46,543 bases of DNA from Draconibacterium orientale (GTDB lineage: Bacteria; Bacteroidota; Bacteroidia; Bacteroidales; Prolixibacteraceae): NCBI GenBank assembly GCA_020726265.1, contig DYSZ01000009.1, positions 1 to 46,543 of the forward strand, given 5' to 3'. Position numbers and translations under genes: made by a program. Of this stretch, positions 7,514-21,333 are shown piece after piece (position 1 is the stretch's first letter; the number at the start of each line of letters is the position of its first letter). The notes under the pieces are model-generated. The model was not told the DNA's origin and did not search any database. It saw nothing but the letters and a program-made list of their open reading frames with translations.

Positions 7514-8020
7514 ATGAAAACAAAATTAATAGCTATTGTATTTGCCGTATTTGGATTGTTAATCGGTATAATTTTTACCGGAATTGCAATTAACCTTTCG
7601 GCTGGCCGAATGATGATTAAAGAAATGAAAAGCCCGTACGATTATGAAAAAACAGTTGAAACGATTGTGAACCGGGTTAATTCAATGCCCGAATGGCACA
7701 TTGTTACTGTTTACGACATGAATAAAGAGGTGATTGAAAATGGCGGAAAACCCATTGGTAAATACACCGTCATCAAGTATTGCAGTGGTAAATATGCATC
7801 GGAAATGTTGATGGATGATGACCGCAAACCCCTGGGAGCAATGATGCCAAAGGCTTTTGCCGTATATGAAAAATCTGATGGACAGGTGTACATGTCCACT
7901 GCAAATGGTGCAGTAATGGGTAAACTATTTGGTGGCGAAACTGAAACGATTATTGAGCGTGTCTCGCTTGAAGTTGAAGAAATACTTCGCTTCATGAATT
8001 TTAAATTCAGCTTATTTTAA
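7514..8020 (+). CDS. Membrane-anchored DUF302 protein
   Basis: The 168-residue protein has one N-terminal membrane segment (about 5-28) followed by a DUF302 domain, recognisable from P-K-A-F-A-V-Y-E-K-S-D-G-Q-V-Y and the closing G-A-V-M-G-K-L-F-G-G. DUF302 proteins are often found next to sulfur-oxidation, rhodanese and thiosulfate genes, but no reaction is established for them. The domain should face the periplasm or the cytoplasmic face depending on insertion. It lies in a 128-bp downstream gap from the channel gene, so it may have an extra promoter, and 24 bp before the flavoprotein gene. Confidence 0.85.
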   Translation: MKTKLIAIVFAVFGLLIGIIFTGIAINLSAGRMMIKEMKSPYDYEKTVETIVNRVNSMPEWHIVTVYDMNKEVIENGGKPIGKYTVIKYCSGKYASEMLMDDDRKPLGAMMPKAFAVYEKSDGQVYMSTANGAVMGKLFGGETETIIERVSLEVEEILRFMNFKFSLF

Positions 8021-8044
8021 TTGTATATAATTGGTTGAAATAAA

Positions 8045-9223
8045 ATGAAGCACGTTTTAATCTTAGGCGGCGGGTTTGCAGGTATTCAAACCGCCATTCA
8101 GTTGCAAAAAAGCGGAAAATTTAAAGTAACACTCGTTTCCGACCGCGACTTTCTGTACCTCTACCCGATTTCCATCTGGGTTCCGGTGCGTATCAAGGAA
8201 ATCGATGAGGTAAAAGTACCACTGACTAAAATTCAGAAAAAATATCCTTTCGAAATCATTATTGACACGGTAAAGGAAATTCATGCTGCTGAAAAACAAG
8301 TGGTTTGTGCCGTCCAGACATTGAGTTACGATTACCTGGTTGTGGCTTTTGGCGCCGATAAAATGAAACACAAAGGTTTGGAAAATACGTTGTCGATTTG
8401 CGGAAAACCTGAAGTTGCCGTTGCCATCCGCGATGGTATTGATGCGTTAATTCAGAAAGGCCGTGGAAAAATTGCCATCGGTTTTGGCGGCAACCCAAAA
8501 GATAAATCGGCTGTGCGCGGCGGACCTGCTTTCGAACTTATTTTCAATATTCACAACCTGCTGAAGAAAAAGAAAATCAGGCAGCATTTCGACCTTACAT
8601 TTTTTGCACCTATGGATGAGCCGGGGGCAAAGATGGGAAAAGGTGCGTTGCCCATGCTCGATAAAATGTTCGCTCAAAATAAAATAGCAAAACGCTTTGG
8701 CAAAAAAATCACCGAATTTGAGCCGGGAGCAGTGGTTTTTGAAGATGGTTCAAAACTCGAATCCGACCTCACTTTGTTTATTCCCGCATCGGCAGGCCAC
8801 CAGGTTTTGCAGGCCAGCGACCTGCCTTTAACCGAAGCAGGGTTTGTAAAAATCGATACAAACTGCCAGGTTGAAGGTATTGAGAATGTGTATGCAATCG
8901 GCGATATTTCGCACATGGAAGGCCCCGAGTGGATTGCCAAACAAGGGCATGTGGCCGAATTAATGGGAAGGATTGCTGCGTACAACATTTTGGTTACCGA
9001 AACTGGAAGTGGTACAAAAAAACACTACCACGAATCGCCCCACATTCTTTGTGTGATGGACACAGGAAACGGCGCTGCTTTTGTGTTCAGAAACACGAAC
9101 AAATCGTTTATTATCCCAATGCCGTTTTTAGGGCACTGGATGAAAAGAGGTTGGGGAACTTATGCCAAAGTAACCAAAGTAGGTATCTGGAGGCATTTCT
9201 CTAACTTTATTTTTTCAGAATAG
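8045..9223 (+). CDS. Sulfide:quinone-oxidoreductase-like flavoprotein
   Basis: The 392-residue protein has an FAD motif ILGGGFAGIQTA (6-17), the second FAD segment V-Y-A-I-G-D-I (282-288), the SQR-type segment SAVRGGPAFE (155-164), and a C-terminal amphipathic region (about 355-392) suited to membrane attachment. C336 in H-I-L-C-V-M-D-T-G matches one redox cysteine of SQRs, and C119 could match another conserved position. The cysteine normally found just before G-P-A-[YF]-E is absent (R158-G-G). It may thus be a variant SQR or another quinone-linked sulfur dehydrogenase. It closes the gene set and is followed by a terminator. Confidence 0.85.
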   Translation: MKHVLILGGGFAGIQTAIQLQKSGKFKVTLVSDRDFLYLYPISIWVPVRIKEIDEVKVPLTKIQKKYPFEIIIDTVKEIHAAEKQVVCAVQTLSYDYLVVAFGADKMKHKGLENTLSICGKPEVAVAIRDGIDALIQKGRGKIAIGFGGNPKDKSAVRGGPAFELIFNIHNLLKKKKIRQHFDLTFFAPMDEPGAKMGKGALPMLDKMFAQNKIAKRFGKKITEFEPGAVVFEDGSKLESDLTLFIPASAGHQVLQASDLPLTEAGFVKIDTNCQVEGIENVYAIGDISHMEGPEWIAKQGHVAELMGRIAAYNILVTETGSGTKKHYHESPHILCVMDTGNGAAFVFRNTNKSFIIPMPFLGHWMKRGWGTYAKVTKVGIWRHFSNFIFSE

Positions 9224-9333: not shown

Positions 9334-10704
<1,371 letters not shown>

Positions 10705-11221: not shown

Positions 11222-11866
11222 TTAAATTTCAATCAGGTTGTTTTTAATGGCAAATTTCAGCAGGTCGATATTGGTTTTGAAGTTCAGCTTTTGCATGATG
11301 TGGTTTTTGTGTGATTCCACAGTTCGGGTGCTGATATTCATCCTCTCGGCAATTTCGGGATTCGAAAGCCCTTCGCCCCAGAAACGGATGATTTCAATTT
11401 CGCGCTTACTCAGATTTCCAGAGCCCGATTCGTCAAGTTGGCGGATGTAATTGTTCAGCAATATCTCCGAAATGGGTTTGGTGAAATAATCGTACCCATT
11501 GCGGAGCGAATAAATTGCCATCACCACCTCGCCGGCCGTGTCGTTTTTGGTGAGCAGCCCTTTTGCCCCGGCGCGTATCGATTCGTAAACCGCACGTTCA
11601 TCGTTTTCCATTGAGATTACCAGCACTTTGATGCGCGACATTTCGCTGCTGATTTTTTTGATGAGGTCGATTTCTTCGGAATGAAATTTATGCAGGTGAA
11701 TAATCAGCACGTTTATCGTCACTGTTCGCGAAGCCCTGATAAAATCGCTGACACGGCTGAACTGCCCGGTCACCGAAATATCCTCTTTTGCCGAAAGCAA
11801 CGAAGCATGACTTTCAAGCAGCAGGGGACTTTGTAAATCGAGCAGGGCAACAGCAATCATATTCAC
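11222..11866 (-). CDS. LuxR/NarL-type response regulator with His in place of the phospho-acceptor Asp
   Basis: The 214-residue protein has a receiver-like domain (1-125) and a LuxR helix-turn-helix (about 150-212; LSKREIEIIRFWGEGLSN then I-A-E-R-M-N-I-S-T-R-T-V-E-S-H). In the receiver the conserved Lys (K107, L-L-T-K-N-D) and the Ser/Thr position (S85) are kept, but the strand that normally ends in the phosphorylated Asp reads N-V-L-I-I-H57-L-H. Only one acidic residue (D10) is left of the usual pair. Canonical aspartyl phosphorylation is therefore unlikely. Its start codon overlaps the stop of the 1408-residue ATP-grasp protein by 4 bp, so the two are translationally coupled and probably work together. 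Confidence 0.92.
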   Translation of the reverse strand: MNMIAVALLDLQSPLLLESHASLLSAKEDISVTGQFSRVSDFIRASRTVTINVLIIHLHKFHSEEIDLIKKISSEMSRIKVLVISMENDERAVYESIRAGAKGLLTKNDTAGEVVMAIYSLRNGYDYFTKPISEILLNNYIRQLDESGSGNLSKREIEIIRFWGEGLSNPEIAERMNISTRTVESHKNHIMQKLNFKTNIDLLKFAIKNNLIEI

Positions 11867-14800
11867 AGGTTTTCAATGATGATTGATTTTCGTTTACGGC
11901 CATCCATGAGCACTGTCAGCGGTTTTTCGAACCTGATATGTTTGAAATAGCTGGTTTTATGCACAATCTCTTTACCTTTCAGTTTGTCCTGGCAAATATA
12001 ATTCACCGAATGACCATGCTGCACCGAAAAATACCCGATGTTCATGGACGTGACATTGTGAAAGAAATGCGAACCGAGTGAGGCATCGAGCGGAAAATCG
12101 GGCAACCCTAATTCGATAATAATTTTGGCATTGCAAATTTGCGGCCACACCACCGGAATCCCCACAGTTTTATCCTGCGTTCCCCAACGCCCTGGCCCGA
12201 TGAGGATGTACTGCCGGTTCTGGTTGAGCATAATCCGGTTGAGATACTCTATTTCCTCGGCCATTTCCAGTGTTTTCAGTTTGTTGAAGAGGTCGGTGTC
12301 CATGTAAATTACGTCAGTGAGGTAGTCGATTTTTCCGTTCCCCATAGTTGCTTCACTGTACAAAATCACTTTGTCGGGATCAACGCGGTCGGGGTCAATG
12401 TCGAAACTGAGCTGATTGCCTATCAGCGGTTTTATCTGCAAAAGATAAAACGAGGCTTTTCCCTGTTCGTCGCAGTTCAGGTCAACCGCAAATTCAATTT
12501 CCACCGGTTTCCCTAATGCTTCTTTTACTGTGTTCAGAATCACATCGATAGTACGGCTCAGCGGAATGTATTCATAATTCAGGATGTTGGCAAAATTCAT
12601 CACCCGCGGCCCGCGGGTATTGACTCCCGGAATCAGGCAATCGTTATCTGGGTTATATACCGAAACACAATGACGGATGGTGTCGTGTTTTTCGGCTTCC
12701 GAAATATCGAGCGAAACAAGCGCAGCCTTGTCGCCGTGTTTCATATAATCGATGTCGGAAATACTCATATCCACGGCAAAAAACTTTACTTGTGTGGTTT
12801 TCAGCAGATCTTTCAACGAAATCACATCGGTTTGTGGATAGCGCGGAGAAAACCTGAAAGCCCGTCCGCCTTCAACCACATAAGTTCCCAGCCCGAGGGC
12901 GATAACGGCAAAACCATCCTCGGGACTCATGTGCGAAACCGGGTAAAAATTGTAGCTCTGCGCGGTACCGCTGATGTGCGGATAATAATAATGGTCGTGA
13001 AAATCGCCCACAAGTTCCTGCAGAATAACCGCCATTTTTTCTTCTTCAATCCGGTGGTGCACCGCCCTGAAATAGGTACGGGCCTGTGGCGAAAACACCG
13101 AAGCAAAAACAAGTTTGATGGCCGTTACAAGCGATTCGAGACGCTGCTCTTCATCGGATTGATTGTTCGGGATGATGTACGTGTCAAAAATGCCGGCAAA
13201 CGGATGCGACAGCGAATCCTCAAACAAACTCGATGAGCGCACCGCAATGGGTTTTCTTATCTGGTTGATAAACACTTTAAGCCTTTTTATGAGTCTGTGG
13301 CTCAGCGTACCGGCCATAAACATCGCTTTTGTTTTTTCAAAGTTTTTCTCCTTGTAAATCTTGTCGAAAAGCTGGTTGCGCTGCATAAAATGCACAAACT
13401 CGTCGGTGCCGATTACCGCCGTTATTGGCGTTCGGATATTAATGTCGTTTGTATATTCCGAAAAATCGAGGTTGTAAATTAAGGTATTGATAAAGGCAAG
13501 TCCGCGCCCTTTTCCACCCAGCGAACCGCTGAACAGCGAAACAATATTTTTCTCGGTAAAATCAAACGAGTCGTCGAAACTGAGTACCCTGCCGCGTTTT
13601 TTATCTTCGCGAGCCTTATCAATGGTGTGAAGCAGCACACTTCGTACTTTTTCGGGGTCTTCGTTTTCCATCGTGCGGATGGGGTTCAGAATTTTGGCGA
13701 TATGAATTTCGCCACGCGCCATCAGCCAGAACGAAAAATGGTTTTTCCGGCCATGGTACAACAACGATTCGCCGGGAACTGTGAGCAACAATGTCTCAAA
13801 CTCGCGCAGGTTGGTGGCCACAGCAATTTCCCGGTTGTTTTCGTCGCGGAATACAAAATCGCCAAAACCGATATTGTCGATGATAAAATTGGTGAGTTCG
13901 CCCGCCAGGTTTTCCGAATTTTTGTCAAGAAACCCAACGCCCATATTTTTTGCCTTCGCCATGTTACGCTTTTCCGACGACTGCAACAATACCGGCAGTT
14001 CGCTGTCCTGCGATTTTACATACTGTGTGAAGGCAAAACCCGCGGTTTTGTTGTTCACCCCGTTCTTTTCAAACTCTACGTCGGCAATCACACACTGCAT
14101 AAAATTGCGGTACTTGTTATAAATGTACATGGCCTCTTCGTAATTGGTGGCCAGCAATATTTTGGGGCGCGACCGCATCTTCGAAATTTTCTCGAGTTCG
14201 TTTTTTTCAGAAGCGATGAGTTTCTGGATATGCCCGAAAACAATGGAGTATAACACCGAAAGGTATTTCGAATAATACAAAGGCGAATCTTCGATGAGCA
14301 GAATCACCCGCACCAGCCCCACGTTGGTATCGTTCTCCACATTAATGCGGTCTTCAACCGATTTTACAATCGCAAAAAAGATTTGCGAATCGCCATGCCA
14401 CATGTACAATTTATCGAGATATCGCGTTGTGTTGGCCAGCGAACTGAAATAAGTAATGTTGGCTTTTTTGTTGAGGAGCAGATAAATTTGCAGGTCGGGG
14501 CGGAGCAGTTTAATTTGCTGTGCCACTTCGACGGGCGATTTCTCATCGTCGCCAACCATGATAATTACAAAATCGAACCGGGCCGACTGAGCCAGCCCGA
14601 TGGCTTGATCATCGGCCGAAACAGCAGTGATGCGCGGTAGCGAAAACAGGCTGTACTGGTATATCTCGCCCATGAAATGTTCAAAAAATGCATCCTCATT
14701 CTCAAGAATAAAAGCATCATAAAAAGTGGCGACAAAAAGAATCTCCTTTACCTTGTACTTCATCATGTCGAGATAAATATACTTATCCACGGTTGGCGTG

Positions 14801-16089
14801 TTGAAATACTGTTGCAGCGGTTTGCTGTTTTTGAAAAGCGAATCGCGGTCGCCAGCGCTTTTTACATCCTGAATTCCGGTCTGTACCTGTTTGTTCAACA
14901 TGTCGCGGCCAATAAAATTGTTGATGTAACCGGCAATCAGCTGGGCGATGTTTACTATCAGGTTGCGTTCTTCTTTCAGAAACGGCCCTTCGTCCAAACG
15001 GGGATACTCGCGCAGGTAAAAAATTTCAATCCACCCTTTTTTGTTATCAATGGTGACAAATGGTTCGGCCTGCCGCCACAGCGTTTCTTTAAACGGCTGG
15101 CTTACCACCGAAATATCTTCAAAAGTGATGCGTGCCACCGTGTCATCGGGGTACTGCCACGAACCGGGCAACATCGCGCAGATTTCCAGCAGTGTTTCCT
15201 CCATGCTTTTCCTTGCCGAAATAATTGCGGTGGTTTTGTTAATGGCATCGAGTTCTTTCAGTCGTTCGGTATTGTCCACCATCAGCCGGTTAAGCAGTTT
15301 TTTGGCTGCCACCCCTGAAATAATGTCGGCTAGGTGGTTGAGCAGGTTGCGTTCTTCTTTCATAAACGGGCCCTCATCAAGCAGCGGAAAATCTTTCAGG
15401 TAATACACTTCGATGGTTCCCTTTTTTCCGGTCTGGGTTTCGAAATCCTGTTTCAGCACCCAACGAGTTTTATAAAAGAAATCGGATGTATAAACTTTGT
15501 TGTCGTAAACAATGCGGGCGGCGGTATATTTGGTATGCTGCCATGCTTCGGGCAATGCGTTACAAATGGCTTTCAGCGCTTCTTCAAGGTTGTTTTCCTT
15601 TTTCAGGATGTCGGTTATCCTGTTGATTCCCCGGAGTTCTTTTAACCGTTCGCTATTTTGGTGAAAGAGCTTTCGGAGCAAATCGCGCGTCAGCGACCCT
15701 GAAATTAGGCTGGCAAAATTGTCGATAAGGTTGCGTTCTTCCTTCATAAACGGGCCTTCGTCGAGCGTGGGGAATTCCTTCAGGTAAAAAACTTCTATCG
15801 AACCCGGTTTGCCGCCCGGAACTTCGAATAACTGGCTTTGCCGCCAGGGTGTTTCGCTGAAATTTCTGCTTACAAAAGTGTTTTCGTCATAGGTAATACG
15901 CACGCAGGTGAACTCGGAATATTGGTAAGCCTGTGGTATCAGGCTGCAAATTTCCTGCAACGACTCTTCGAGGGGTTTATCGCGGTTAAGCAACGCCACC
16001 GTGCTGTTTATTCCCTCAAGTTCCTTTAGTCTTTCGCGGTATTGGAAAAAAAGAGAGTTCAGTTCATTCGTTGATTGGTTATCTTTCAT
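11863..16089 (-). CDS. Multidomain signalling protein: three GAF-like repeats, two receiver-like domains, PEP/pyruvate-binding ATP-grasp domain
   Basis: The 1408-residue protein opens with three repeats of about 125 residues (18-145, 147-272, 274-395), each starting E-R-L-K-E-L and ending L-D-E-G-P-F-[ML]-K-E-E-R-N-L; they look GAF-like. A degenerate receiver-like domain (about 446-580) and a more intact one (about 594-735; E600-D601, D670, K723) follow. Residues 850-1225 match the nucleotide-binding domain of PEP synthase/PPDK: GGKGRGL (858-864, K860), IAVRSSSLFEDS (948-959, R951), E1199 and Q1218. The phosphohistidine swivelling domain and the PEP barrel are absent. The last 180 residues hold G-P-G-R-W-G-T and G-S-H-F-F-H-N-V-T-S, recurrent in this family as I recall it. 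A metabolic PEP synthase role is unlikely; signalling is inferred from the domain set and from the coupled regulator. Confidence 0.88.
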   Translation of the reverse strand: MKDNQSTNELNSLFFQYRERLKELEGINSTVALLNRDKPLEESLQEICSLIPQAYQYSEFTCVRITYDENTFVSRNFSETPWRQSQLFEVPGGKPGSIEVFYLKEFPTLDEGPFMKEERNLIDNFASLISGSLTRDLLRKLFHQNSERLKELRGINRITDILKKENNLEEALKAICNALPEAWQHTKYTAARIVYDNKVYTSDFFYKTRWVLKQDFETQTGKKGTIEVYYLKDFPLLDEGPFMKEERNLLNHLADIISGVAAKKLLNRLMVDNTERLKELDAINKTTAIISARKSMEETLLEICAMLPGSWQYPDDTVARITFEDISVVSQPFKETLWRQAEPFVTIDNKKGWIEIFYLREYPRLDEGPFLKEERNLIVNIAQLIAGYINNFIGRDMLNKQVQTGIQDVKSAGDRDSLFKNSKPLQQYFNTPTVDKYIYLDMMKYKVKEILFVATFYDAFILENEDAFFEHFMGEIYQYSLFSLPRITAVSADDQAIGLAQSARFDFVIIMVGDDEKSPVEVAQQIKLLRPDLQIYLLLNKKANITYFSSLANTTRYLDKLYMWHGDSQIFFAIVKSVEDRINVENDTNVGLVRVILLIEDSPLYYSKYLSVLYSIVFGHIQKLIASEKNELEKISKMRSRPKILLATNYEEAMYIYNKYRNFMQCVIADVEFEKNGVNNKTAGFAFTQYVKSQDSELPVLLQSSEKRNMAKAKNMGVGFLDKNSENLAGELTNFIIDNIGFGDFVFRDENNREIAVATNLREFETLLLTVPGESLLYHGRKNHFSFWLMARGEIHIAKILNPIRTMENEDPEKVRSVLLHTIDKAREDKKRGRVLSFDDSFDFTEKNIVSLFSGSLGGKGRGLAFINTLIYNLDFSEYTNDINIRTPITAVIGTDEFVHFMQRNQLFDKIYKEKNFEKTKAMFMAGTLSHRLIKRLKVFINQIRKPIAVRSSSLFEDSLSHPFAGIFDTYIIPNNQSDEEQRLESLVTAIKLVFASVFSPQARTYFRAVHHRIEEEKMAVILQELVGDFHDHYYYPHISGTAQSYNFYPVSHMSPEDGFAVIALGLGTYVVEGGRAFRFSPRYPQTDVISLKDLLKTTQVKFFAVDMSISDIDYMKHGDKAALVSLDISEAEKHDTIRHCVSVYNPDNDCLIPGVNTRGPRVMNFANILNYEYIPLSRTIDVILNTVKEALGKPVEIEFAVDLNCDEQGKASFYLLQIKPLIGNQLSFDIDPDRVDPDKVILYSEATMGNGKIDYLTDVIYMDTDLFNKLKTLEMAEEIEYLNRIMLNQNRQYILIGPGRWGTQDKTVGIPVVWPQICNAKIIIELGLPDFPLDASLGSHFFHNVTSMNIGYFSVQHGHSVNYICQDKLKGKEIVHKTSYFKHIRFEKPLTVLMDGRKRKSIIIENL

Positions 16090-16526: not shown

Positions 16527-18851
16527 ATGTCGAAATTCAGAATTGAAATACTGATAACGCTGGTTGCCATTTCCCTTGGGGTTGTGGTAGTTACCATTGG
16601 CTATTTTTCGTACAAAAGCCTTACAAACATTGTGCACTCCGTTCACCAGGCTGCCCTGCCCGATAACCGGCTTTTTCTCATCAAAGACATTGGGGCCGAC
16701 CTCACAGCACTGGAGCACAGTGCCCGACTTTATGTATTAACCGACAGCAATGATGATCTGGACGATTTTTATGCCATTGAAGACAGCATTTCTAAAAATC
16801 TGGATTCACTCCAAATGCTGAAGAAGGAAGAATATTTTAGTCTTGCACTCATTGATTCACTTTCGAAATTTACCCGCCAAAAAGGTGAGCTTTGGAACAA
16901 CGTTATTAATATGCACTTAACCAGCGGATACATTTTTCCTGCGTTTTCGGGTTTATTGCAAAATCTGAATAACCCCCTGTCCGATTCAACGGTTTCGAAA
17001 AATCAGGCCGGGGAAAATACAATCAAAAGAAAAATACAGCAGCTTGAATGGAAAATTTACCAGCAAAATAAACAGCGAAATGTATTGGAATCGCAGTTGC
17101 TCGAAAAAAATGTTTGGCTGGGAAAACAAATAAGCCAGTTGACTGCCGACGCCGAAAAAGCTGAAGCCACTGCTTTTCTTGCAAAAACCGCTGATGCCAA
17201 CCGCTTGGCCAAACTTACTTATAAACGAATTGCCCAGTTTATTTTCTCGGCAATTTTGCTGCTGCTAATTGCTCTTTTTGTGCTTTTCAATTACCTCAGA
17301 AAAGCTCGGATTACAAGAGTAACATTGATGAACGCCCGCGAGAAAGCTGAAAATCTGGCATTAGCAAAAGCACAGTTTGCCGCCAATGTGAGCCACGAAC
17401 TGCGAACTCCGGTAAACGCAATTTATGGTTTGTCGGAGCAAATTCTCAATAAAAAACTAGATAGCGAAACAGCCGAAATGGTTTCGGTGGTATATCAATC
17501 GGCCGGCCATTTGCGGAATGTGGTAAACGATACGCTTGATTTTACAAAAATTCAATCCAAAAAATTAACTTTTCAATCTGTGGCTTTTTCACCTGCTGCT
17601 ATTTTTCAGGAGGTTTATTCGTTGCTGAAAAACGAAGCTTCCGGAAAAGGAATTTTGCTCAAATTACAGGGGGAAGGAGAAACACCCACTGCACTTCTGG
17701 GCGATCCGCTGCGGCTGAAACAAATTGTGATTAACCTGACCGGCAACGCCATAAAATTTACCGAATCAGGTGAAGTCAGCATCCTTGTTACCGGATTTAA
17801 CCGCGATGAAGATCATTTTGAACTTGAATTTCAGGTGGCTGACACTGGCGTGGGTATCGATGAAAAAAACCTCAGCCTTGTTTTTGATGAATTTGTGCAA
17901 CTTGAAAACAACAGTGGAAAGAAGTACCCCGGAACAGGATTAGGACTTCCGATTGTAAAAAAACTGGTGGAATTGCAAGGCGGTAAAATTAGCCTGAAAA
18001 GCAAACCGGGCGAAGGAACAGTAGTTACGGTTCATCTTTTGTTTCCGTTGGCCGACCCGTCAGCAATTGAACCGCGCGAAAGTGAAATTACAGAAATACC
18101 GCAGTACGTAAGGCAAGTTTCGGTTTTAATTGCCGACGACGAGGAGTACAACAGGTTTTTACTAAAGCACATTTTTAAGAAGTGGGGAATTCGGATTGAA
18201 GAAGCAAAAAACGGAAACGAGGTTACAGAAGCTGCCTGCAACGGGCACTTCGACGTAATTCTGATGGACTTGAATATGCCAGGTATGAATGGTTTTGAAG
18301 CTTCAAAAACAATTACCCGGTGTAACAAACAGGTTAAAGTTATCGCGGTTACTGCAACCAACGACCAATTCGACAAACAAACCTGCTTCGATGCCGGAAT
18401 GATCGGAATCCTGTTCAAACCTTTTTCTGAAAAAGAACTTTTTGAAACAATTGAAACAGCGGTTCGTGAAAATCGCAGCCAAAATAAAACCGATTCCGGC
18501 GTTCAGCCCGTAAATTTATCAGAACTCAGCAGGCTGGCCGGCGGCGACGAAAAGTTTCTTCTTGAAATGGTCCAGCTTTTTTTAAAATCGATGGAATCGG
18601 GAATTGCAGGAATTGAAAATGCACTCAAAAACGAAAACCTGCATGAAGTTGCTGAATATGCCCACAAAATGGCTGCCCCTGTGAAACATTTCGGAGCCAT
18701 GCATCTTTACGAAAATATCAGGCAACTGGAAAGGCTTTCGAAAAACTCGCCGACAGCCACTTCTGTTCAACCTGTTTTTAGCGAGATAATAACTGAAGCT
18801 GAACAATTAAAATGTAATTTAACCGCTTATCTTAATCAAACAAATGATTAG
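16527..18851 (+). CDS. Hybrid sensor histidine kinase with receiver and HPt domains
   Basis: The 774-residue protein has a membrane segment at about 8-28, an extracytoplasmic helical sensor (30-235) and a second membrane segment at about 237-256. The kinase core follows: H-box ANVSHELRTP (286-295, H290), N-box NLTGNAIKF (403-411), G1 DTGVGID (439-445) and G2 GTGLGLP (469-475). A receiver domain (about 530-645, D581, K631) and a C-terminal HPt domain (about 660-770, EYAHKM, H713) complete an internal phosphorelay. The final acceptor is probably the adjacent NtrC-type regulator, whose gene starts 15 bp downstream. The sensed signal is unknown. Confidence 0.94.
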   Translation: MSKFRIEILITLVAISLGVVVVTIGYFSYKSLTNIVHSVHQAALPDNRLFLIKDIGADLTALEHSARLYVLTDSNDDLDDFYAIEDSISKNLDSLQMLKKEEYFSLALIDSLSKFTRQKGELWNNVINMHLTSGYIFPAFSGLLQNLNNPLSDSTVSKNQAGENTIKRKIQQLEWKIYQQNKQRNVLESQLLEKNVWLGKQISQLTADAEKAEATAFLAKTADANRLAKLTYKRIAQFIFSAILLLLIALFVLFNYLRKARITRVTLMNAREKAENLALAKAQFAANVSHELRTPVNAIYGLSEQILNKKLDSETAEMVSVVYQSAGHLRNVVNDTLDFTKIQSKKLTFQSVAFSPAAIFQEVYSLLKNEASGKGILLKLQGEGETPTALLGDPLRLKQIVINLTGNAIKFTESGEVSILVTGFNRDEDHFELEFQVADTGVGIDEKNLSLVFDEFVQLENNSGKKYPGTGLGLPIVKKLVELQGGKISLKSKPGEGTVVTVHLLFPLADPSAIEPRESEITEIPQYVRQVSVLIADDEEYNRFLLKHIFKKWGIRIEEAKNGNEVTEAACNGHFDVILMDLNMPGMNGFEASKTITRCNKQVKVIAVTATNDQFDKQTCFDAGMIGILFKPFSEKELFETIETAVRENRSQNKTDSGVQPVNLSELSRLAGGDEKFLLEMVQLFLKSMESGIAGIENALKNENLHEVAEYAHKMAAPVKHFGAMHLYENIRQLERLSKNSPTATSVQPVFSEIITEAEQLKCNLTAYLNQTND

Positions 18852-18865
18852 TTAAAATCTTGATT

Positions 18866-20212
18866 ATGAGTGAAAAACCTTTTAAGATATTTGTAGTTGA
18901 AGACGACGAATGGTACAACAGGTTGCTGGTTCACAACCTTTCGTTAAACCCCGATTATGAAATTGAATCGTTTACCAACGGGAAAGACTGTTTAAACAAC
19001 CTGGGCAAAAATCCCGATGTTGTTACGCTCGATTACCGGCTCCCCGATATGCAGGGACTTGAAATTCTCCAGAAAATAAAGGCCGAAAACGAAGAAATTC
19101 AGGTGATATTGATTTCGGAACAGGATGAAATTGAAGTTGTTGTTGACCTGCTGAAATACGGGGCCTACGATTATCTTGTTAAATCGAAAGACATCCGTGA
19201 AAGGCTTTTAAATACAGTGCAGAACATCCGCAATGGGGTGAACCTCAGAAAGGAAATCGTGTCGTTGAGAAATGAAGTAAAGAAAAAATACAGCTACCAA
19301 AATACGATAATCGGTAATAGCACTGCCATTCAAAGCATTTATGCACTGATTGAGAAAGCCACCCGCACCAACATTTCGGTAGCCATTTCGGGCGAAACCG
19401 GTACCGGAAAAGAATTGGTGGCAAAAGCCATTCACTACAATTCGCCCCGTGCCGAAAAACCATTTATCGCAGTGAATATGGCTGCAATTCCAAAAGACCT
19501 CACCGAAAGTGAACTTTTCGGACACGAAAAAGGCGCATTTACAGGAGCAGCATTCCGTCGTACCGGAAAGTTTGAAGAGGCTAACGGTGGCACGCTCTTT
19601 CTCGATGAGATTGCTGAAATGGATATCTCTCTTCAGGCCAAATTATTGCGGGCGCTTCAAGAAAAAGAAATTGTTCGGGTGGGCAGCAACAAGCCGGTAA
19701 AAACCGATTGCCGCATTATTGTAGCTACCAACCAAAACTTACAGGAATGTGTAATCAAGGGGAATTTCCGTCAGGATTTATATTACAGGCTTTACGGATT
19801 TCCAATTGAGCTACCGCCTCTTCGCGACAGACAAAACGATGCTGCCATTCTTTCAAAACATTTTATCAAATCATTTTGCACTGAAAATAAGCTTCCACAA
19901 AAACAGCTTTCAAAACAGGCCGCTGAAAAATTGTTGGCTTATTCCTTCCCCGGAAATATCAGGGAGTTAAAGTCGGTGATTGAACTCGCCATTACACTTT
20001 CTGATGGTGATGAAATAACTGGTGAAAATATTTTTCTGGGCAACAATGCTTTGATGGAAGAAACCATTAATCAGGAGCTTAGCCTGCGTGATTATAATAT
20101 CCGGGTTGTAAAAAAATATCTCGAAAAATACAATAACGACATAAAACTCGTGGCAACAAAACTTGATATTGGGGTTGCCACCATTTACCGGATGTTAAAA
20201 GCTGACCTATAA
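18866..20212 (+). CDS. NtrC-class sigma54-dependent response regulator
   Basis: The 448-residue protein has a receiver (D56, K106), an AAA+ domain with Walker A GETGTGKE (176-183), the sigma54-contact motif GAFTGA (223-228), Walker B T-L-F-L-D-E-I-A (243-250), and a C-terminal Fis-type helix-turn-helix (about 405-446). It should activate sigma54 RNA polymerase when phosphorylated, probably by the hybrid kinase encoded just upstream. The ATG at 18866 is preferred over an in-frame TTG at 18860. A palindrome and a sigma54-like promoter lie directly downstream, before the coiled-coil gene, and are the likely target. Confidence 0.95.
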
Positions 20213-20403: not shown

Positions 20404-21333
20404 ATGGAAACAAAAAAAATGACAGCACTGAGCAGTATTTTAACCGGAGTGTTGGTTGTACTAATTGTGTTGGTGAGCGTAGTAACTTACAACAACAAAA
20501 ACCGGATAAATACACTGAATGAGAAAAATGCAGGTTTGACATCGACTCTTGAAGAACGCGATTCGTTAGTAAATGAATTGGCGAGCACTTTCGATGAAAT
20601 TGAGCAGAACCTCACTTTTGTCCGCAACAAACGTGGAAACATGGTAATTGCCGGCGAAGAAGGAGCTAAAAATCAAAAAGAAGTCCTTGTAGCCGACATT
20701 AAACTGATGAACGAAATGCTTGAGGAAAGCAGTGTAAAAATTGAAGAACTTGAGAAAAAACTAAAATCTTCGGGTATTGAAATCAAATCGTTCAGAAATA
20801 AAATTGCCCAGCTGAACAAGAGCATCGAAGAACAGAACAACAGCATTATGCAGTTAACTGCCGAACTTGAACAGCGCGACTACAAAATTGCTGAAATGGA
20901 CGGTGCCATTGTAAAACTACAGGAAGATTTAGCTGTACGCGACGACTCCATCAATTCGAAATCGCAGCTAATTGCTGAAAAAGCGCAAACAATTATTGAG
21001 AAAGACAACGAACTCAACAAAGCGTATTTTGCGGCTGGCACAAAAAGACAACTCGTTGAAAAAGGAGTACTCACACAAGAAGGCGGGTTCCTAGGAATTG
21101 CAAAAAACAAATCAATCCGCGACGATTTCAATGCAAGCTCATTTACACAGCTTGATATGCGAAATGCCAGTCAGTTTCCAATAAACGCAAAAAAAGCAAA
21201 ACTGATTTCAGAACATCCGGCAAGCTCGTACAGGCTGGTTGAGGAAAACGACAAAATTGCTTATCTGGAAATTGAAAAACCAGAAGAATTCTGGAAACTG
21301 ACCCGGTTTGTGGTTGTTGAAACCCGGAATTAA
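20404..21333 (+). CDS. Membrane-anchored coiled-coil protein (Cbp1/adhesin-like)
   Basis: The 309-residue protein has one N-terminal membrane segment (about 8-29), a long coiled coil rich in E, K, N and L (about 35-215), and a compact C-terminal part (about 220-309) starting with A-A-G-T-K-R-Q-L-V-E-K-G-V-L. This layout resembles Bacteroidota proteins annotated as Cbp1-family collagen-binding adhesins; that resemblance is from memory and uncertain. It sits downstream of a kinase/NtrC pair and a sigma54-like promoter, so envelope remodelling or surface function under stress is a plausible role. A terminator follows. Confidence 0.8.
   Translation: METKKMTALSSILTGVLVVLIVLVSVVTYNNKNRINTLNEKNAGLTSTLEERDSLVNELASTFDEIEQNLTFVRNKRGNMVIAGEEGAKNQKEVLVADIKLMNEMLEESSVKIEELEKKLKSSGIEIKSFRNKIAQLNKSIEEQNNSIMQLTAELEQRDYKIAEMDGAIVKLQEDLAVRDDSINSKSQLIAEKAQTIIEKDNELNKAYFAAGTKRQLVEKGVLTQEGGFLGIAKNKSIRDDFNASSFTQLDMRNASQFPINAKKAKLISEHPASSYRLVEENDKIAYLEIEKPEEFWKLTRFVVVETRN

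Follow-up and report, generated by a model that had tools for sequence, protein, structure and literature searches.

What does a protein that combines two-component receivers with the first half of a phosphoenolpyruvate (PEP) synthase do next to a gene for glutamate dehydrogenase (GDH)? The question is raised by a contig of Draconibacterium orientale (DYSZ01000009.1, assembly GCA_020726265.1), of which a stretch of 46,543 nt, hereafter the window, was analysed. On its minus strand it carries, in this order, a gene for a 1408-residue protein (11863-16089), a gene for a 214-residue regulator composed of a receiver (REC) and a LuxR-type helix-turn-helix domain (11222-11866) and, 535 bases beyond the latter, a GDH gene (9334-10686). 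Residues 426-1408 of the large protein, which we call the core, form a stand-alone protein of ~990 residues in many relatives; the core comprises a receiver without an acceptor Asp (REC1), an intact receiver (REC2), a DUF5752 region, an ATP-grasp domain and a carrier-like C-terminal domain, and its family spans several phyla. We tentatively propose, with a little less than even confidence, that the 1408-residue protein is a receiver-controlled phosphoryl carrier from the line of PEP synthase and pyruvate phosphate dikinase (PPDK), and that it regulates GDH. Domains, conserved residues, fold resemblance and gene linkage were observed directly; from these we infer phosphorylation, binding and an effect on GDH. 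The features of the locus are as follows.

15655..16062, minus strand: sensor-like repeat 1, residues 10-145 (45-50% identity among the three repeats)
15274..15678, minus strand: sensor-like repeat 2, residues 138-272 (repeat comparison)
14890..15303, minus strand: sensor-like repeat 3, residues 263-400 (repeat comparison)
14317..14751, minus strand: REC1 without acceptor Asp, about residues 447-591 (match to PDB receiver sequences)
13864..14316, minus strand: REC2, intact receiver, about residues 592-742, with D670 at 14080-14082 (VIA alignment and conserved residues)
13537..13818, minus strand: DUF5752 region, residues 758-851 (Pfam PF19027, 26.9 bits, cut-off 23)
12424..13524, minus strand: ATP-grasp domain (PPDK_N), residues 856-1222 (Pfam PF01326, 129.8 bits)
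11866..12420, minus strand: carrier-like C-terminal domain, residues 1224-1408, with His1341 at 12067-12069; a putative divergent swivelling phosphohistidine domain (AF2 and VIA)
11222..11866, minus strand, start GTG 11866 or ATG 11860: REC-LuxR regulator with a degenerate receiver (GerE 65.2 bits, Response_reg 29.7 bits)
9334..10686, minus strand: NADP-type GDH (NF006929, 775 bits, cut-off 536)

The link to GDH was followed through the neighbourhoods of the core gene in other genomes. We scanned the best 80 of 582 relatives, which had been found through two C-terminal motifs, such that the conservation of those motifs is partly by construction; 18 rows from a whole-protein search served as an independent check on it. 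Of the 80 scanned loci, 34 had a GDH gene within 10 kb of the core and 31 had one within 1 kb, with L092 scored as a miss after its core open reading frame (ORF) had been lost in ORF calling. When the neighbours were clustered without the use of names, GDH was the commonest family (33 loci), and the next two genes (12 loci each) can be read as 2-oxoglutarate:ferredoxin oxidoreductase, present within 10 kb in 12/80 loci. Outside the 48 Bacteroidota-like loci, with which L063 (Alphaproteobacteria label) and L068 (Chlorobiota label) were grouped, a GDH gene was found within 10 kb in 15/32 and within 1 kb in 14/32. The labels outside Bacteroidota include Cloacimonadota, Desulfobacterales, Gemmatimonadota, Eisenbacteria, Marinimicrobia, Ignavibacteria and one Hodarchaeota contig; as the contigs are mostly metagenome bins, an individual label may be in error.

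Furthermore, 39 Bacteroidales loci were hand-picked, from among the matches listed, for the presence of the core, mostly one per family, before their GDH genes were looked at. The fetched stretch contained GDH in 16 of them, and in 14 the distance was no more than 1 kb. With genes placed at random, ~0.3% of such loci would be expected to show this, and 14/39 would have a binomial probability near 3e-26. That figure can serve only as a guide because the loci share descent; linkage is better argued from the range of phyla and orientations in which it is seen. As a control, 29 PEP-utiliser loci, for the most part PPDK and totalling 90.6 kb with ~1.5 kb on each side, contained no GDH gene at all. 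The linkage of the core to GDH is thus conserved, as is expected of a gene for a GDH regulator.

The adjacent genes also pair by subtype. Pairs were counted where at least 800 core and at least 400 GDH residues were aligned and the gap was below 1.5 kb. In Bacteroidota, 35 such pairs comprised 17 with a window-like core and a window-like GDH (A-A), 18 B-B and none mixed, with two loci (L058 and L066) holding both pair types. The cut-offs of 43% (core) and 68% (GDH) were chosen after the identities had been seen, the groups being well separated (47.8-82.5 vs 34.7-37.9% for the core, 69.6-91.8 vs 54.4-65.9% for GDH). In two Ignavibacteria loci the adjacent GDH belongs to another class, its best model being GdhA_Arch at 531-536 bits, under the cut-off of 750.

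A number of observations speak against a functional tie. No GDH gene was nearby in 46/80 scanned and 23/39 sampled loci, many of the contigs being short, and gene linkage does not equal function. The pairing in Bacteroidota could be explained by inherited synteny, and among the 16 pairs outside this phylum it fails, cores of 37-40% identity adjoining both GDHs of 66-79% and GDHs of 29-30%. This failure, together with the GDH of another class in Ignavibacteria, nevertheless indicates that the core is linked to GDH in general and not to one inherited block alone. Co-occurrence is weak: in 149 sampled Bacteroidales genomes the core was found in 130 and GDH in 140, five of the 130 core genomes had no GDH, and 15 of the 19 core-less genomes kept it (125/130 vs 15/19; Fisher p 0.016), so that GDH can evidently do without the core gene.

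What, then, could the enzyme half of the core do? The original prediction regarded the ATP-grasp site as apparently intact, and the alignment bears this out: K860, R951, E1197, E1199 and Q1218 are identical in all 114 aligned rows, which include the window protein and both L035 and L051, apparently the same contig. Residue 1220, an Arg in PPDK, is K in 71 rows and R in 43. Structurally, the ATP-grasp part most closely resembles rifampin phosphotransferase (RPH; 5hv1, VIA Z 26.6) and PEP synthase (2ols, Z 26.5), and PPDK 1dik aligns with Z 18.8. In the preceding DUF5752 region, His779 is present in 113/114 rows; a literature search, confined here and below to open-licence papers, yielded no paper on DUF5752. 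The invariance of the site bears on a non-catalytic alternative, in which the ATP-grasp and C-terminal domains would serve as a sensor of the ATP/AMP ratio, with the protein acting as an allosteric effector of GDH. Such a sensor would fit a chain in which no acceptor domain is recognised, but five catalytic residues invariant in every row seem to go beyond the needs of binding, and we hold this explanation to be unlikely.

The original prediction considered a swivelling phosphohistidine domain to be absent along with the PEP barrel. The barrel is indeed missing, since the chain stops after the carrier-like domain and Pfam gives no barrel match. The statement on the phosphohistidine domain is probably wrong. 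The C-terminal 185 residues, modelled alone (AF2, 56 sequences), gave a pLDDT of 92.0 and a pTM of 0.89. When 998 of the best Foldseek chains were re-aligned with VIA, the first was the carrier domain of PPDK (2fm4; Z 6.4, root-mean-square deviation 3.6 over 114 residues), and the first ten rows (Z 6.4-5.5) were all carrier domains, from PPDK, RPH (Z 6.1) and two pyruvate kinases, the latter matching through their C-terminal part, which we take to be PEP-utiliser-like; enzyme I appeared at Z 5.4. In the predicted structure of the whole core (pLDDT 84.9, pTM 0.67), the alignments of 2ols and 1dik begin in the ATP-grasp domain and reach the final residue of the window protein, which falls at residue 467 of 2ols and 511 of 1dik (end points only).

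The residue that would carry the phosphoryl group is His1341, present in 18/18 rows of the whole-protein search, which are independent of its motif. In the model, a strand K-I-I-I-E is followed by a loop, by S-L-G-S-H at the start of a helix and by a further strand about eleven residues later; true PPDK sequences have G-I-L-T, a loop, M-T-S-H-A-A and, eleven residues later, C-C-V. When these elements are paired by eye on the PPDK structure, their succession agrees, but the profile alignment did not detect the relation.

Several results weigh against a carrier fold. An unrelated carboxypeptidase ties at Z 5.5 at VIA rank 11, chaperonins follow at Z 5.2-5.1, and unrelated folds as a whole span 5.5-5.0, while the Z of the C-terminal domain stays below 8, which is weak if taken alone. 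Foldseek with the C-terminal model gave no row at E <0.001, Pfam had no family for this domain, and a profile comparison with 27 PPDK domains (from the 29 PEP-utiliser loci) returned a probability of 0.03% with the wrong parts aligned. A HMMER comparison of the domain with PDB sequences produced chance matches only (best E 0.17). A search of PHROGs gave no match. The carrier fold is strengthened despite the low Z because the 2ols and 1dik alignments in the whole-core model reach the last residue. The predicted structure, as opposed to the sequence, thus makes a swivelling phosphohistidine fold at the C-terminus likely, and a catalytic role of His1341 probable.

With both domains considered, the core can be set beside the known enzymes. 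Like PEP synthase and PPDK, it has an ATP-grasp domain and, probably, the carrier fold at its C-terminus; unlike them, it has no PEP/pyruvate barrel, has receivers attached and possesses a carrier-like domain that has diverged beyond the reach of sequence methods. RPH (5hv1, 5fbu) likewise combines ATP-grasp and carrier domains in the absence of a PEP barrel and phosphorylates a drug, its rifampin-binding domain lying between those two; in the core model, the carrier-like domain comes directly after the ATP-grasp domain, with no rifampin-binding domain between them. RPH suggests a further alternative, namely that the protein is a small-molecule dikinase whose carrier phosphorylates a metabolite near the GDH reaction (2-oxoglutarate, glutamate or another). 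The structural ranking of the ATP-grasp part, headed by RPH and PEP synthase, would suit such an enzyme, as would neighbouring genes for enzymes of the 2-oxoglutarate node; however, a third domain, for substrate binding, is recognised neither between the two enzyme domains nor after them. We judge a dikinase of this kind to be quite unlikely.

The receiver half shows how the carrier might be controlled. The original prediction spoke of receivers in general, and this holds fully for REC2 only. REC2 contains the acidic pair, acceptor Asp, Ser/Thr and Lys of a response regulator, with E600 in 114, D601 in 103, D670 in 112, S704 in 114 and K723 in 113 of the 114 aligned rows, and its structural match is the ComE receiver (VIA Z 17.5). 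REC1 is recognisable as a receiver (core profile positions 37-108 match PDB receiver sequences, best E 8.8e-5), but its acceptor position is Met or Ile in 13/13 aligned rows. Pfam found neither HisKA nor HATPase_c in the 1408-residue protein. An intact receiver and the invariant His of a carrier-like domain, conserved together in one chain, also raise the idea of an internal relay, in which phosphate would pass from the ATP-grasp domain to His1341 and on to Asp670 of REC2, or in reverse; this would be a His-Asp relay that dispenses with a histidine kinase, and GDH would be controlled by binding only. Receivers usually obtain their phosphate from helices of the HisKA or Hpt type and not from swivelling domains, so an internal relay appears rather improbable.

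The sensor-like repeats announced by the original prediction were confirmed as three units of ~135 residues, 45-50% identical to one another, that fill residues 10-400; they matched nothing in Pfam or among PDB sequences. A single copy occurs in each of L047 (cut off), L048, L049 and L050, the last three of which also match hybrid histidine kinases. Stand-alone repeat ORFs adjoin core genes in L066 (8196-9047), L136 (4947-5729 and 9655-10776) and L144 (5017-6168). The sensor repeat may act also in trans.

For the receiver-controlled carrier that we favour, the following course can be suggested. The N-terminal repeats, in the subgroup that has them, and a histidine kinase acting on Asp670 of REC2 would determine which state the protein is in. 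Phosphoryl transfer from ATP to His1341, carried out by the ATP-grasp domain, would be gated by the state of REC2, and the phosphoryl group would then pass to a partner, most probably GDH or a factor acting on GDH, thereby setting the flow between 2-oxoglutarate and glutamate. Because there is no PEP barrel, the phosphoryl group should not be destined for pyruvate, and because no substrate domain is recognised, a protein, with GDH as the likeliest, is its probable acceptor.

The neighbouring REC-LuxR gene suggested another route to the original prediction, in which the ATP-grasp domain phosphorylates His57 of the regulator. The adjacency of the two genes and a His aligned with the acceptor position in the window protein, both correctly noted there, were its grounds. 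The regulator scores 65.2 bits for GerE and 29.7 bits for Response_reg, just below the cut-off of 30.2. The predicted gene overlap exists only if the regulator starts at GTG, where it amounts to 4 nt (GTGA); an alternative ATG, which matches the start in 4/5 aligned relatives, lies 2 nt beyond the stop of the 1408-residue gene, leaving no overlap. Orthologues were accepted at 34% identity or more over at least 180 aligned residues (150 for the 80-locus scan), which dropped, for instance, a match at 27% in L126. The expected co-occurrence was found in part: the regulator adjoins the long form of the core, on the same or the opposite strand, in 13 distinct genomes, but above this cut it stands beside the core in only 8/80 scanned and 0/39 sampled Bacteroidales loci.

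His57 is not conserved. Across the 13 distinct orthologues (L035 and L051 counted once), residue 57 is N in five, H in two, V in two, D in two, I in one and S in one, His being confined to the window regulator and a 95% identical sister, and the acidic pair and the Lys are likewise variable. This, together with the rarity of the regulator beside the core, leaves phosphotransfer to His57 unsupported; we rejected it and consider it hardly credible. We read the regulator as a transcription factor whose receiver is degenerate and which probably reacts to the same state as the 1408-residue protein, perhaps by binding, without phosphorylation at residue 57. Receivers lacking the aspartate, such as RitR, have been surveyed, with Asn as a common substitute (16%) and with PPDK among the outputs joined to them, according to the available part of that survey (PMC4395418). 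The REC-LuxR regulator is similar to the RitR type, as described there, in having no conserved acceptor Asp, and differs in that members of a single orthologous group carry H, N, V, I, S or D at residue 57.

Could the core explain an older observation on GDH? Baggio and Morrison reportedly described in 1996, to go by the title, trans-acting gene(s) for gdhA of Bacteroides thetaiotaomicron, and a segment of ~3 kb, similar in size to the core gene, is said to have been needed in E. coli. In the Bacteroides-like genus that contains the genomes matched by 16S, the core was present in 57/60 genomes and in 37/37 of good quality. One or two GDH genes surrounded it in 15 of the 20 neighbourhoods fetched; in L214, L215 and L220 the end of the core lies 84-297 bases downstream of the GDH gene, on the opposite strand, and in L202 a catalase gene stands between GDH and core. 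In B. thetaiotaomicron, BT_1970 and BT_1973 are presumably the GDH genes. BT_1971 was considered as the core gene and rejected, being named a catalase in the available parts of two papers (PMC12596196, PMC4595636). Since a catalase gene lies between GDH and core in L202, a similar gene order is suggested for B. thetaiotaomicron. The core gene is thus a candidate for the trans-acting factor of 1996, as an unproven lead. In its boldest form, our proposal would make this receiver-gated ATP-grasp/phosphohistidine protein, found from Bacteroidota to a Hodarchaeota bin, a new class of protein phosphotransferase that modifies or activates GDH and is the 1996 factor; we regard this combination as somewhat unlikely.

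The architecture as such is a known catalogue entry, as REC fused to a PPDK-type domain is among the response regulators of PMC5847659, where REC-PPDK is listed as 'Bacteroides-like'; to judge from the accessible part of that paper, the core evidently has the same architecture, and that part gives no function, second REC, C-terminal domain or GDH link. A comparable arrangement is that of DVU0246 and DVU0247 in a nitrate cluster of Desulfovibrio, where the gene for a receiver protein adjoins that for a PPDK-like protein containing ATP-grasp and mobile domains, and transposon mutants in either gene grow unhindered by 100 mM nitrate (PMC4001038, available in part). The likeness is by description only: the two are separate proteins, the mobile domain is recognised by InterPro, and the accessible text gives no GDH link. 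In titles and abstract openings of the literature matches listed, a GDH link of the core family was not found, and none of these matches was seen to describe the carrier-like C-terminal domain, the multi-phylum linkage to GDH or the subtype pairing.

GDH joins carbon and nitrogen metabolism and, to our knowledge, little is understood of how it is controlled in Bacteroidota. The family of the core is widespread and little studied, and may control the carbon-nitrogen balance of the cell. A two-component output protein that bears the first half of PEP synthase and is encoded by a GDH gene in several phyla offers a testable candidate for GDH control, possibly for the 1996 observation. Phosphorylation through His1341, if true, would be a use of the PEP synthase machinery at the level of proteins. 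Some proteins likened to 'phosphoenolpyruvate synthase' by family models may be signalling proteins and not gluconeogenic enzymes.

The family has further members. The relative L051 (labelled Prolixibacteraceae) has a core 82% identical to that of the window. The genome of D. orientale encodes two more PPDK_N proteins, on contigs C33 and C150; the former is taken as a normal PPDK-like enzyme because it also has a PEP-utiliser domain. The C150 paralogue has 993 residues and aligns to residues 426-1404 of the window protein; its gene (locus L041, 2528-6882) directly follows a DUF1015-like gene, with a serA-like gene upstream, and in L042, L043 and L085 serC-, serA- and DUF1015-like genes precede the core in this order. 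Because such neighbours adjoin the C150 type and some other short forms, members of the family may serve different enzymes, and the partner of the C150-type paralogue may be serine metabolism. In L088 (labelled Riflebacteria), a 783-residue core-like protein (13107-15458; 27% identity over 564 residues) directly follows a normal core and represents a shortened variant.

On the plus strand of the window, a DUF302 protein and then a flavoprotein, for which the best NCBIfam model is the type III sulfide quinone reductase, under the model cut-off, are encoded at 7514-9223. A 309-residue protein (20404-21333) matches the NCBIfam 'Cbp1 family collagen-binding glycoprotein adhesin' at 202 bits (cut-off 90), a name that may be too specific because the remaining weak matches are coiled-coil families. 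Divergently from the 1408-residue gene, 16527-20212 encodes a CHASE3/HisKA/HATPase/REC/Hpt hybrid kinase (774 residues) and, after 8 bases, an NtrC-type sigma-54 regulator (450 residues). This hybrid kinase is a possible source of phosphate for REC2.

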